Shown here: positions 4,105 through 10,156 of the stretch, in pieces
Layout of the letters: every line of letters begins with the position of its first letter
How positions within the stretch are numbered: the stretch's first letter is position 1
Source: Gilliamella sp. Lep-s35
GTDB taxonomy: Bacteria; Pseudomonadota; Gammaproteobacteria; Enterobacterales; Orbaceae
Length of the DNA: 64,000 nt
Direction: 5' to 3'
NCBI RefSeq assembly: GCF_009795845.1
Contig: NZ_WTEX01000008.1
Location: forward strand, 1 to 64,000
The notes under the pieces: generated by a model
Told to the model about the DNA's origin: nothing
What the model saw: only the letters and a program-made list of their open reading frames with translations
Database searches by the model: none
Translations under genes and position numbers: made by a program

Positions 4105-5766
4105 TTAGATAATAAGTAGCTCTTTTGCATTGGCTAATGTTGCGTCAGTAATTTTGTCGCCCCCTAATAGCCGAGCAAGCTCGTTTAAACGACCCGTATT
4201 ATCTAGCTTTTGCATATCGGTTGATGTCTGCTTGCCGTTGGTTTGTTTGCTAACAAAATAGTGCTGATTTGCTTGTCCAGCAACTTGTGGTAAGTGGGTT
4301 ACTGTGATCACTTGCGTTGATTCACCAAGTTGCCTTAATAGCTGACCGACTTTAGCTGCTGTTGGTCCACTAATACCAACATCAATTTCATCAAAAATTA
4401 AAGCAGGTGTGTCCATTTTTTGAGCGGTTAACACCTGAATTGCTAAAGCAATACGCGACAGTTCACCACCAGAAGCCACTTTCGCAAGCGGTTGTGCGCT
4501 TTGTCCTGCATTGGTGCTGACTAAAAATGTTACCTGATCGGCACCGTCTTCATTTAATCGATTTTCATCAAAAGCAACATCAATACTAAATTGACCATTT
4601 GGCATTGATAAGTCATGCATGATAGTGGTCACTTTTTTGGCTAATGTTTTGCTTATTGTTAATCTTTTTTGATGTAATTTTGTGGCAATTTCGACAGCGA
4701 TTTGATGGTATTTAGTAATATCATTTTTAAGTTGTTCACTTTGCTCATCTTGCTGATTAATTTGCTTAAATTCAGCTAACAAAGTTTGATGTAAATTTGG
4801 CAATTCTTCGGGCGAGACATGATGTTTACGCGCCAAAGCAATTTGTTTAGATAACCGCTGTTCAAGTTGCATAACTCGAGCAGGATCAAGCTCTAAACGT
4901 TCACTATAGTGACGAAGCTCATCGCTTGCTTCTTTAATTTGGATAGATGCATCTTCCAACATGTTATAAACATTATTTAACGTTGGATCGAGCGAGGTTA
5001 GTTCTTGAACGCTATTTTTTACACTGTTTAGCAAATTGCTGATGTTATAGTCGTCGGCCTCGTCTAACAACATAACAGATTGTTGGCTTAAATTAATTAG
5101 CTGTTCACTGTTAGATAGCCGTTTATATTCCTCATCAATTTGTTGATATTCCCCCTCAATGGGCGAAAACTCATTGAGTTCTTTCAATTGATATTGCAAA
5201 AGCTGCATATGTGCATCACGTTCTTGCCGTGTTGTTTCGTATTGCTGATAAGCTCGTGTTGCCTCTTTCCATTGCTTATAGGCTTGATGCATTTGGGCAA
5301 GTAGTGTTGGTTCATTCATATAGTGATTTAACAACAATTGCTGATAATCACTGCGTAACAGACGCTGATGTTCATGTTGTCCATGAATTTGAATCAACAT
5401 TTGCCCCAAATCTTTTAATTGCGAAATAGGAACAGCGCGACCATTAATAAACGCTTTAGAGCGCCCGTCTTGATTAATCACTCGTCGCAAAATACACTCA
5501 TTGCCCTCATCAAGTTGGTTTTCGCTTAGCCAATTAAAAGCTGCTGGCGTATCATCAAGCACAAAACAAGCCGAAATATCCACACGATCTGCACCATGCC
5601 GAATAGATGAAGCATCAGAACGATTTCCTAAACATAATCCCAATGCGTCAATAGCAATTGATTTTCCTGCTCCTGTTTCACCCGTAATTGCTGTCATCCC
5701 CAAAGAAAAATCCACAAGCAACCGATCGACGATAGCAAAATTATTAATAGTTAGTTGAGTTATCAT
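4105..5766 (-). CDS. recN: DNA repair ATPase RecN (SMC-like)
   Basis: RecN is an SMC-like protein of double-strand-break repair that helps RecA-dependent recombination. The 553 residues (standard length) contain Walker A GETGAGKS (about 29-36), long coiled coils through about 150-360, the ABC signature [10 protein letters not shown] and Walker [15 protein letters not shown] LexA box 55 bases upstream (5821-5836) predicts strong SOS induction, as known for E. coli recN. The 338-bp stretch between its start and coaBC's neighbours is otherwise filled by the gene itself; transcription is independent of coaBC. Confidence 0.96.
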
Positions 5767-5789: not shown

Positions 5790-6059
5790 TTATAATACTA
5801 GCAGTATAGCAGTAAAAGCACTGTAAATAAATACAGTTTTTGTTTTTTTGAGATGTCTTTTTTGGGAGCGTTCACAATCTGTATAAATATGTTTTTCTAA
5901 TTGCTTTAGCTCATATAAAAACCAATCAAAATTGGTGTATAACCTCTGCTCAATGAAACCATTTTTATCACTTTCTAGCGCCTCACAGTCATAATAATTT
6001 TCAGCTTTCTGACTAATAATAAAGGGTGTTTTATATTGAATAAATAAAATATTGACCAT
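5790..6059 (-). CDS. Hypothetical 89-residue protein with C-terminal membrane segment
   Basis: I do not recognise a family. The product would have a mixed soluble part (1-70), a basic stretch (KRHLKKTK) and a short hydrophobic tail (VFIYSAFTAILLVL), so it could be a tail-anchored membrane protein. It lies 23 bases upstream of recN on the same strand. Its last 16 codons contain the recN LexA box and probable promoter, which argues either for a coincidental ORF or for a gene end reused as promoter. It may belong to the accessory segment with the ATPase that follows. Confidence 0.35.
   Translation of the reverse strand: MVNILFIQYKTPFIISQKAENYYDCEALESDKNGFIEQRLYTNFDWFLYELKQLEKHIYTDCERSQKRHLKKTKTVFIYSAFTAILLVL
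5821..5836. promoter_or_regulatory. LexA box (SOS operator) for recN
   Basis: The sequence CTGTAAATAAATACAG has the exact CTGT-N8-ACAG core of the gammaproteobacterial LexA operator, with an AT-rich spacer. It lies 55-70 bases before the recN ATG, and a possible -10 (TATACT on the reverse strand) lies between them. The position and the gene agree with the known SOS control of recN. Confidence 0.85.
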
Positions 6060-6213
6060 TAATTTATGTTGTAATAGATTAAAAAAGATTGTTTTTTAAT
6101 CACTTTTCTTTAGTTGTTAATTAAAAATTATGCCTATAAGGTAAATCTATAGAAATAAGCATTCTTGAATATTTTGTTAAAAATAATCTGATGTTATATA
6201 AGGATAAAAAATA

Positions 6214-8658
6214 GTGAAAATTTTAAAAATAAAACGAATCGAGAATTTTGGAATTTTTCGAAATTTTGAATGGGATAATGAATTAGCTTATCTACAAAAT
6301 AATAAAAAGGAAATATATAATTTTAAAAAGATTAATATTTTTTATGGTAGAAATTATTCTGGAAAAACAAGTCTTTCTAAAATAATTAGATCATTAGAAA
6401 CTAAAAACATTTCTAGTAAATATGAAAATCCTGAGTTTGAAATTTGCTTAGAACATAATAAAACTATTAAACAATCTGAGCTTGATTCTTTTTCTTATCC
6501 AATTTATGTTTATAATTCTGATTTTGTAAAAGAAAACTTAAAGTTTATTTATGATGATTCACAAGACATTGAATCATTTTCAGTTACTTTAGGCGACGAT
6601 AACCAAAAAGTTTTGAACCGTATTCAAGCATTAAACGATAAACTTGGTACAGATAAACAAGATGCCGAAACTGGTATATATTTATCCATTAAAGAAAAAC
6701 AAAAAAATTTGAATAAGGCAACGAATGTTTGTTCTGATAAGCAAAAAGAACTAGATAAATTACTTTTAGATAGAGCTACAAAAAGTGAAGATTCTATAAG
6801 AAAACAACCTGAAAAATATGGCGATCAAAATTATACTATCACAAAACTAAAAGAAAAAGATATTCCTAAGGTTTTAAAAACAACTTATAAATCATTAGAT
6901 AAAAACCAAAGATATTCATATGAAAAACTTATTTTACAAGTAGAAAAAGAAGCTCCCAATAAGATACCTTCTTTTACAATCAATTACCAAACGATAATTA
7001 AATTAGTCAAAGAGATACTTAACACCCAAATTGGAAAATCAAAAAAAATAGAGGAATTGGTAAATAATGGTCATCTCAATAAATGGGTAGAAGAGGGGAT
7101 GCATCACCATGAAAAAAGAAATACATGTGCTTTTTGCTCAAATAGTATTACTAACGAGCGTTTAGAGGCTCTACGTAATCACTTTGATGAAGAATCAACA
7201 AAATTAAAAAAAGGTATTATAAAATGTATTGAATATTTAGAAGAAGAAAAAGCTTCTATGACCGTTAATATCGATGTAAATGCTTTTTATGAAAATTTTC
7301 ATCCTGAGTTAAATGAATTAAAAACAGAACTTTCAAGACTTTTACAAAGCCAAATCCAATCATCAGATATGCTTATATCTTACTTAACGAAAAAGCAAGA
7401 ACAGTTATTTAGTGTGTTGGAATTTTCACCTCCCGCGGATTATTCTGAGGAGATAAGAAAAAAACTAGAACAGATTGAAAACATTAGACAAAAGCATATT
7501 GAATTAACAACCAATTTAAATCATCAAAAAAAAGTAGCGAAAGATCATCTACGCTTAAATAATGTTTATAATTTTTTAAAAGATATCAATTATATCAATA
7601 AATTAGCTGAAATAGAAAAGCTTAAGGCTACTATTCCACCATTAGAAAACCAATTGGAATTATACATAAAAGAAAAGGATCGTATTCTCAACGAAATTAA
7701 GTTAGAAGAAAATAAACTGAAATCTGAACGAGAGGCCTGTAATCGTATCAATGAAATACTACAACATGATTTTGGTCATAACGCTTTGAGCTTAGAAGCA
7801 AAAGAACTAGATGATTCTCAAAATAAAATTATCAAATTTGAAATTAAACGAAATGGTATTAAAGCACATAATTTGAGTGAAGGGGAGTGTAGTCTTATTG
7901 CCTTTTGTTATTTTTTAGCAAAAATCCAAGATGATCTTGAGCAAGATAAAAACCCAATTATTTGGATAGATGATCCAATCTGTAGTTTAGATAGTAACCA
8001 TATCTTCTTTATTTTTTCTTTAATTCAGGAAAGAATTTGTAAAAATAAAAAATATAAGCAATTATTTATTTCAACTCATAGCTTAGAATTTTTAAAGTAT
8101 TTAAAACAGCTTCAAGGAATTGATAAAGATTCTAAAATTGCTAACAAAAAAATAAAAGAAGAGAATAGAAATAGTAGTTATTATTTAATTGAACGAAATG
8201 ATCATATTTCGACAATAAAACGTATGCCTTTATACTTGAGTAAATTTGTAACAGAATTTAATTTTTTATTTGAAAAAATCTATAAATGTGCAACAGTGAA
8301 AAGTATTGATGATAGTAATTATGATTTATTTTATAACTTTGGTAATCATGCTCGTAAATTTTTAGAAATTTATACTTTTTACAAATTTCCATCTCCATCT
8401 TATGGAACAACCCAAGTACTGAAAAGTTTTTGGGGTGATGATCTTTATGTATTTATGACCGATAGAGTGCATAACGAATATTCTCATCTGTGTGGCGTTT
8501 TAGAAAGAGGTGAACTTATTATTGACGCGCCAGAAATGAAAAAATCAGCTATCGCAATAATAAAAAAAGTTCAAGAAGATATAAACCAATATAATGCACT
8601 GTTAGAAAGTATTGATATTGAGATACCAGACGATTCTTTGTATCCAAAAGAAGTATAA
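6214..8658 (+). CDS. AAA_13-type ATPase with zinc hook; RloC/PrrC-like anticodon nuclease candidate
   Basis: The 814 residues form a split ABC/SMC-type ATPase. Walker A GRNYSGKT is at 45-52, a long coiled coil carries a CxxC zinc-hook candidate (C305, C308), the signature LSEGE is at 554-558, Walker B is IIWIDDP (D586, D587), and the H-loop His is H622. This order is known from RloC, a Rad50-like tRNA anticodon nuclease. The C-terminal part has R714-x3-E718 and then H753 or H758, matching the Arg-Glu-His pattern of PrrC/RloC nuclease sites. GTG start with AAGGA 10 bases upstream. Very AT-rich, lying between recN and IS remnants, so probably acquired. Alternatively it is an AAA_13 protein without nuclease activity. 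Confidence 0.7.
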   Translation: MKILKIKRIENFGIFRNFEWDNELAYLQNNKKEIYNFKKINIFYGRNYSGKTSLSKIIRSLETKNISSKYENPEFEICLEHNKTIKQSELDSFSYPIYVYNSDFVKENLKFIYDDSQDIESFSVTLGDDNQKVLNRIQALNDKLGTDKQDAETGIYLSIKEKQKNLNKATNVCSDKQKELDKLLLDRATKSEDSIRKQPEKYGDQNYTITKLKEKDIPKVLKTTYKSLDKNQRYSYEKLILQVEKEAPNKIPSFTINYQTIIKLVKEILNTQIGKSKKIEELVNNGHLNKWVEEGMHHHEKRNTCAFCSNSITNERLEALRNHFDEESTKLKKGIIKCIEYLEEEKASMTVNIDVNAFYENFHPELNELKTELSRLLQSQIQSSDMLISYLTKKQEQLFSVLEFSPPADYSEEIRKKLEQIENIRQKHIELTTNLNHQKKVAKDHLRLNNVYNFLKDINYINKLAEIEKLKATIPPLENQLELYIKEKDRILNEIKLEENKLKSEREACNRINEILQHDFGHNALSLEAKELDDSQNKIIKFEIKRNGIKAHNLSEGECSLIAFCYFLAKIQDDLEQDKNPIIWIDDPICSLDSNHIFFIFSLIQERICKNKKYKQLFISTHSLEFLKYLKQLQGIDKDSKIANKKIKEENRNSSYYLIERNDHISTIKRMPLYLSKFVTEFNFLFEKIYKCATVKSIDDSNYDLFYNFGNHARKFLEIYTFYKFPSPSYGTTQVLKSFWGDDLYVFMTDRVHNEYSHLCGVLERGELIIDAPEMKKSAIAIIKKVQEDINQYNALLESIDIEIPDDSLYPKEV

Positions 8659-8808: not shown

Positions 8809-8961
8809 ATGCTAAAAAAACCAACGCCAGCGACACCCGAAAAAATAGATCAAATTTCGTTAGATGCGCTTGTCCCTCAAAATCACTTTGTTCGTAAAAT
8901 AGCTAAAGTCATTGATTTTGAATTTATTCGAGAAGCGGTAGCACCACTTTATTGCCCTAAT
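8809..8961 (+). pseudogene. IS1182-family (DUF772) transposase, N-terminal stub
   Basis: The first 51 residues match the start of IS1182-type transposases: LDALVPQNHFVRKI, then a short helix and EAVAPLYCPN. The match breaks exactly where TGTAAATACCCC of the IS3-family copy begins (8962), and the frame then reads 10 unrelated residues into that element before a stop. The remaining roughly 400 residues are not found on the far side of the IS3 copy. Confidence 0.7.
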
Positions 8962-9001
8962 TGTAAATACCCCAAACTTAGTACAAAACTCACATAGAAA
9001 A

Positions 9002-10082
9002 TCACGCTGCCTGTTTTTGTGTTTTAAATTCAATCGGCGTCATATTATTTAATGCCTCATGCGGTCTTTCGGTATTATAAATCGTTAACCATTCTTCAGT
9101 CATTCTCCTTGCTTGCTCTAGGTTGTTAAAAAGATATAAATCTAACACCTCGGTTCGATAAGTTCGGTTAAATCGTTCAATATAGCCATTTTGATAAGGG
9201 CTACCGGGCTGGATATAATCAATGGTTATATCATGTGATTTAGCCCAGTTTATAAAGGTTTTTCCAGTAAATTCCGGCCCATTATCGACCCGTATTTTTA
9301 ATGGATAACCATGGTATTGAGCGAGTTTATCCAGATAACGAATGATTCTACCTGCAGGTAAACTGACTGCAATATCAATACCTAACGCCTCACGATTAAA
9401 GTCATCTATCACATTGAATGTCCTAAAGCGACGTTGATTTTGACTGCTGTCACTCATAAAATCCATTGACCAACATTCACCTTGCTTATTGGTGACTAAT
9501 AACCTTTCCGGGCATCGTGGAGGAATGCGTTTTTTCGCTTTACCCTGAGATTAAGTTTTAATTGGCAATACACCCGATACACCCGTTTATGATTCCATTT
9601 ATAGCCGAGCTTTCTGATACGATTAAAGCATTTAGGAAAGCCCCAACGTAAATGTCTTTCTGCGATATCGCTCAATATCGCAATAATCATCGAGTCATCC
9701 GGTAACTTAGGTTGATAATAGTAAGCACAACGGCTTAAGCCAACAATGGCACAACTCATAGTAATAGTAACTGAATGATTTTGTTGTAGTTGCTGTGCCC
9801 ACGTTTTACGTGCTGTTGTGGGCACTAAAGCTTTTTTATGATTTCTTCCTGAAGCTGGGATTTCAAACTTAACTCAGCAACCATCTGTTTAAGTTTGCGC
9901 TTTTCTGCCTCAAGCTCTTTTTAGCGTTTGATATCTGAGCTTTCCATTCCGCCATATTTTTCTCGCCACTTATAAAAAGTCGAGTTGCCCATGCCATATT
10001 TACGGCACAGTTCTTTAACCGGAATACCTGCTTCTGCTTCTTTTAATATCGATACAATTTGGTGTTCAGTCATTTTTTTCAT
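9002..10082 (-). pseudogene. IS3-family transposase OrfA-OrfB, inactivated by a nonsense codon and a frameshift
   Basis: OrfA starts at 10082 (MKKMTEHQIVSILKEAEAG) with an HTH, but codon 54 is TAA (9921-9923) inside DIKR-(stop)-KELEAEK. The frame then reaches the slip site A-AAA-AAG and would pass by -1 into OrfB (ALVPTTARKTW). OrfB is broken again at the T6/A6 run 9530-9535, where one base is missing (KRK followed by RIPPRCPERL only after correction). The catalytic core is otherwise kept: SMDFMSD, VDNGPEF and YIERFNR supply the D-D-E triad. This copy cannot make an active transposase. Confidence 0.85.
9831..9837 (-). other. Programmed -1 frameshift site A-AAA-AAG
   Basis: On the reverse strand the bases read ATA-AAA-AAG-CTT-TAG in the OrfA frame; slipping back one base at AAAAAAG gives AAA-GCT-TTA and enters OrfB. 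This is the classic IS3-family arrangement for making the OrfAB fusion. Confidence 0.75.
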
Positions 10083-10156
10083 GTTTAAATCCTCTTTACT
10101 TTTATCATAGAGAATTTTCTACTTTTTTGTTGTGCTATTTTAGGGGGACAGTTACA

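Follow-up and report, generated by a model that had tools for sequence, protein, structure and literature searches.

The gene at positions 6214..8658 of the window, by which we mean the whole stretch of 64,000 nucleotides from Gilliamella sp. Lep-s35 that was analysed, very probably encodes an anticodon nuclease of the RloC family that is switched by DNA breaks and acts through protective tRNA cleavage. We have hardly any doubt about the family membership itself. Among the individual properties, RNase activity appears highly probable and specificity for the anticodon likely, while for the main role of the protein we lean towards phage defence, a preference kept cautious because published antiphage support for RloC is thin. 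The RloC family was described in 2008, and the protein is a sound, ordinary new example of it. RloC is biochemically well defined, less so in its role during live infection, and the Gilliamella copy offers a natural setting in which to ask whether an anticodon nuclease triggered by DNA breaks gives protection from phages and how it acts beside PrrC: it is compact and intact, resides in a bee-gut symbiont for which close strains without the gene exist, and shares its genome with PrrC.

A split ATPase with a putative zinc hook

The gene and the elements of its ATPase portion are located as follows:

6200..6204, forward strand: ribosome-binding site AAGGA, 9 nt ahead of the GTG, read from the sequence
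6214..8658, forward strand: rloC-like gene, intact open reading frame of 814 aa with GTG start; PADLOC PDC-S06, Pfam AAA_13
6346..6369, forward strand: Walker A, G45-RNYSGK-T52, found by motif script
7126..7137, forward strand: putative zinc hook C305-A-F-C308 in the coiled-coil insert; both cysteines, W291 and H299 invariant in 26 relatives
7873..7887, forward strand: ABC signature LSEGE, residues 554-558, found by motif script and alignment
7957..7977, forward strand: Walker B and start of the D-loop, IIWIDDP, residues 582-588 (D586), found by motif script and alignment
8077..8079, forward strand: H-loop histidine H622 (T621-H622), invariant among relatives

PADLOC assigned residues 3-803 of the window protein to PDC-S06 (PDLC04887, E=1.8e-280), a full-length match to what is a candidate label only, comprising several subfamilies that are not equally close to RloC; a weak secondary match to PrrC covered the ATPase, and Pfam returned AAA_13 (E=2.6e-124). 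PDC-S06 presumably equals DefenseFinder's RloC. The features described here now tie this candidate label to a characterised family. When RloC was first delineated in 2008, its hallmarks were a Rad50-like ABC domain in two halves, a hook of the type CxxC and the C-terminal triad R-x3-E-x36-52-(S)H; members measured 658-897 aa, 13 of 70 began with GUG, 10 of 73 genes were found in possible transposons and only 8 of 73 were linked to restriction-modification loci (PMC2610378). The length of 814 aa falls within the published range.

The original prediction had proposed an RloC-like protein in which Walker A, a CxxC pair (C305/C308), ABC signature, Walker B and H-loop are united in a single chain. 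All of these motifs were located by script, and size, split ATPase, hook, triad spacing, GTG start, flanking insertion sequences (IS) and the lack of adjacent restriction-modification (R-M) genes all fit an RloC. In an alignment of 26 relatives, consisting of the window protein and loci found independently, the ATPase motifs, the hook and the triad discussed below are invariant, and 12 diverse family members retain the ATPase motifs together with W291, C305, C308, N711, R714, E718, S757 and H758. The full-length AF2 model (pLDDT 81) places long helices between the two ATPase halves, and its residues 1-678 match Rad50/SMC heads with Z values of up to 18.3. As modelled, this part of the protein is an ABC head of the Rad50/SMC type that is interrupted by a coiled-coil arm, and C305/C308 would form a zinc-binding CxxC hook.

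The nearest named relative is from Gilliamella bombi (93% identical). A scan of viral contigs with the single window protein gave no matches; with the alignment as query it yielded 78 loci. The relative from Wohlfahrtiimonas populi (L005:7965-9880, 47-57% identical) is spread over two frames, has a late start and is probably broken.

The gene occupies a variable spot beside recN

The neighbourhood of the gene contains the following features:

4105..5766, reverse strand: recN, which adjoins the gene on the left and anchors the variable spot; found in 34 of 35 Gilliamella genomes
8810..8997, forward strand: 5' fragment of a transposase-like open reading frame, cut off by the next IS, read from the sequence
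9002..10084 (end approximate), reverse strand: IS3-type insertion sequence with broken orfB, open reading frames 9002-9466 and 9496-9825, type assigned by eye

The source genome comprises 2.47 Mb in 103 contigs, and the window belongs to contig C96. The AT-rich patch beside IS elements that had been noted from the sequence is real: the rloC-like gene has a GC content of 26.5% compared to 35.5% for the window, and IS remnants lie both just downstream and at the far left window edge. The open reading frame is intact, and dN/dS values of 0.21-0.25 from the strain comparison show that purifying selection acts on it. Scans for a promoter and a terminator of the gene gave matches that were not above chance.

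A full-length close homologue of the gene was present in 3 of the 35 Gilliamella genomes, each time beside recN, and genomes with a recN 98-99% identical to that of the window carry other content at this spot. Between recN and a conserved gene for a 183-aa protein, one strain (L142) has an Mrr-type nuclease (PDC-S02) with a close homologue in another (L145). In L150 the recN interval holds a C5 methylase and an NgoPII-type enzyme, in L151 a cluster that PADLOC matches to 'cll', in several strains an open reading frame resembling an NRAMP-type transporter, recognized by eye, and in L156 just a small open reading frame. In one and the same strain comparison, synonymous divergence amounts to 0.14 and 0.34 for the rloC-like gene and to 0.62 and 1.08 for recN, i.e., it is 3-4 times higher for the latter. 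Horizontal exchange of a working rloC-like gene at the recN spot is the simplest reading; strong AT bias may account in part for the low values of the rloC-like gene.

These findings bear on whether the protein serves mainly in a DNA-damage response, in which cells persist or stop growing after double-strand breaks, rather than in phage defence. We consider this unlikely. It would agree with the activation of Acinetobacter baylyi RloC by nalidixic acid without phage (PMC3874168), with the survey of 2008, in which 10 of 73 RloC genes lay near genes of DNA metabolism (PMC2610378), and with the adjoining recN and a LexA-type box at 5821-5836. However, the distance from this box is 54 nt to recN but 377 nt to the rloC-like gene, and patchy presence, low synonymous divergence and the occurrence of restriction genes at this position in other strains together form the pattern of a mobile defence gene.

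Several further observations concern the recN flank. The box, CTGTAAATAAATACAG, is a perfect LexA-type palindrome, the sole perfect one in the 64 kb, and is common to L002 and L003. Control of the rloC-like gene by this element was considered and rejected in view of the distances given above, and the box is assigned to recN. Between recN and the rloC-like gene, on the reverse strand, lies an open reading frame of 89 aa (5790-6059), for which partial matches were seen in L141, L143, L144 and L149 and a family search gave no match. At the recN spot of L148 (10164-10727), a 187-aa open reading frame includes RNIFAH, which resembles the Rx4H motif of HEPN RNases; a family search with it gave no trustworthy match, and its homologue in L147 seems truncated. 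The recN flank in Gilliamella can hold restriction genes and may be a defence hot spot.

The C-terminal domain is a predicted HEPN-like nuclease

Beyond the ATPase, the protein carries the following elements:

8179..8637, forward strand: HEPN-like C-terminal domain, residues 656-808, predicted nuclease (AF2, structural matches, hhalign to PrrC)
8353..8367, forward strand: R714-x3-E718 of the predicted catalytic triad, invariant in 38 C-terminal domains
8482..8487, forward strand: S757-H758 with H758 as third member of the triad; H758 invariant, S757 conserved in at least 90%

Among the C-terminal domains of 38 relatives, which are 11-95% identical to that of the window protein, no column other than R714, E718 and H758 is invariant. 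These residues are spaced R714-x3-E718-x39-H758 in the window protein, with a serine (S757) before the histidine, and correspond to R692, E696 and H737 of Geobacillus kaustophilus RloC, a triad proven by mutation in a protein whose activity was enhanced by hook mutations (PMC2610378). The original prediction had offered R714-x3-E718 together with H753 or H758; the arginine, the glutamate and H758 stand, whereas relatives have N, S, T, I or other residues in place of H753, which is not conserved, so that H758 is the histidine of the site.

A profile of the window family was compared by hhalign with one built from ten PrrC C-terminal domains, resulting in a probability of 75 and an E value of 2.5e-5; the R, E and H of both profiles fell into register, while no control, be it one of ten shuffles of the columns, the alignment in reverse or one of four other regions of the window protein, exceeded a probability of 0.6. 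Judged by these profiles, the domain is homologous to the PrrC nuclease domain. Modelled alone, it reached a pLDDT of 82.5 and a pTM of 0.77, and HEPN domains were its best structural matches with Z values of 5.2-7.3, a range in which the tool warns of mere helical resemblance. They included HI0074, the HEPN toxin of a HEPN/MNT pair, a chain of the ITS2 processing complex, HepT and AF_0298. Going by the entries and their titles, we take all 13 rows with Z of at least 5 to be HEPN or nucleotidyltransferase helical domains. Foldseek ranked the HEPN toxin of the HEPN/MNT pair first, with an E value of about 1, and the fold alone is not decisive. The anticipated match of this domain to PrrC was thus borne out by the profile comparison, with the triads in register and a score above all controls, and the AF2 model is closest to HEPN domains, a superfamily that has included the PrrC and RloC nucleases since 2013 (PMC3710099).

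The single window protein had no match in a PDB sequence search, the profile of 26 relatives retrieved from the PDB ABC/SMC heads and chance helical matches and neither PrrC nor RloC, and a search of viral structures with the modelled C-terminal domain brought no useful match.

Alternatively, the protein could be an ABC-HEPN RNase within the RloC family whose natural target is other than the anticodon loop, e.g., mRNA or another site in tRNA. HEPN RNases range from tRNA-specific enzymes to general mRNases like RNase LS (PMC3710099), the C-terminal domain is divergent, with 11-26% identity to most of the more distant relatives, and the likeness to characterised RloCs is judged from their published features. 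We nevertheless regard this reading as improbable, since PrrC and two distant RloCs with 33% mutual identity all cut anticodon loops (PMC3874168) and triad and spacing are of the RloC/PrrC type. That the protein is an SbcC/Rad50-like ATPase without catalytic activity or with a purely structural role, its C-terminal domain being kept for other reasons, can practically be discarded: the ABC head does dominate the sequence and the Pfam label is simply AAA_13, but no positions of the C-terminal domain are better conserved than the three nuclease residues, such a nuclease domain is absent from Rad50 and SbcC (PMC2610378), and the gene is under purifying selection.

Restriction-modification linkage and PrrC in the same genome

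The statement that no R-M partner is visible holds for the locus, as no R-M genes adjoin the rloC-like gene, but not for the whole genome, in which an hsdM-hsdS-prrC-hsdR cluster is found on another contig (C18 of G000, L159:4303-11476). Just before this cluster lies a CRISPR array (L159:2303-3953) with 28-nt repeats, TTTCTAAACTGCCTACACGGCAGTGAAC, and 32-nt spacers; we assume the repeat to be of a kind resembling type I-F.

A relative that is 41% identical to the window protein (L009, in L160) is encoded within an operon hsdM-hsdS-rloC-hsdR, between hsdS and hsdR, the subunits being named by sequence reading and mutual matches. This is the arrangement that gave RloC its name. Beyond hsdR of the same region (L160:4069-6642), a second, longer ABC protein of 857 aa is encoded that belongs to another PDC-S06 subfamily. 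R-M linkage of relatives is sporadic altogether: an hsd match was obtained in 6 of 83 loci with two query sets, and not all six are RloC-like.

Only 2 of the 73 RloC genes of the 2008 survey occurred in PrrC-bearing strains (PMC2610378). For Gilliamella one may speculate, at rather long odds, that two anticodon nucleases are stacked, PrrC guarding the type I R-M system and a free RloC beside the SOS gene recN taking over once DNA breaks have led to relaxed restriction, in combination with a defence hot spot beside recN in which modules are swapped.

Proposed mechanism

By analogy with characterised RloCs, from which DNA-break trigger, zinc control, tRNA target and protective role are deduced, the N-terminal ABC head and the zinc-hook arm would serve as a Rad50-like switch, the hook holding the C-terminal HEPN-like domain off in the resting state. 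Contact with broken DNA and ATP hydrolysis would release this domain, whereupon R714, E718 and H758 would cut at least one tRNA species within its anticodon loop. The resulting halt of translation could render phage infection abortive or shield a cell whose DNA is damaged. In characterised RloCs, DNA ends and ATP hydrolysis turn the enzyme on, and it stays active while broken DNA persists; the substrate is tRNA-Glu, for the A. baylyi enzyme also tRNA-Gln, and excision of the wobble nucleotide should defeat phage tRNA repair (PMC2610378; PMC3874168). Published evidence of direct antiphage activity of RloC is scarce: a paper from 2025 calls the function of RloC unknown and reports a correlation with susceptibility (PMC12447246), and loss of rloC did not render A. 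baylyi more sensitive to nalidixic acid than the wild type (PMC3874168).

Comparison with known systems

PrrC proteins have 341-416 aa, contain no hook insert and are in all cases linked to type Ic R-M loci. PrrC as the identity of the window protein was rejected on account of its 814 aa, its insert and hook, and recN and IS elements as neighbours. With the PrrC of the same genome (L159:7262-8371) it shares an ABC ATPase followed by a C-terminal nuclease domain, the R-x3-E...SH pattern and a profile in register; that protein, in contrast, has 369 aa, lacks coiled-coil insert and hook, and is encoded inside hsdM-hsdS-prrC-hsdR. Rad50 and SbcC resemble the window protein in the fold of residues 1-678 and in the hook-bearing coiled coil. 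Identity with either was likewise rejected, as the triad-bearing domain 656-808, a predicted nuclease, is present and no gene for an Mre11/SbcD-type partner adjoins.

The closest agreement is with RloC itself: split ABC head, CxxC hook, R-x3-E-x39-H with serine before the histidine, GTG start, proximity to IS elements without adjacent R-M genes and, for the 41% identical relative, a place within an hsd operon. With 814 aa, the window protein is also close in size to G. kaustophilus RloC (804 aa). The likeness to the G. kaustophilus, A. baylyi and Campylobacter jejuni proteins is drawn from their published description. What sets the window protein apart from the RloCs studied so far is its host, a bee-gut Gilliamella, and the position of its gene next to recN.
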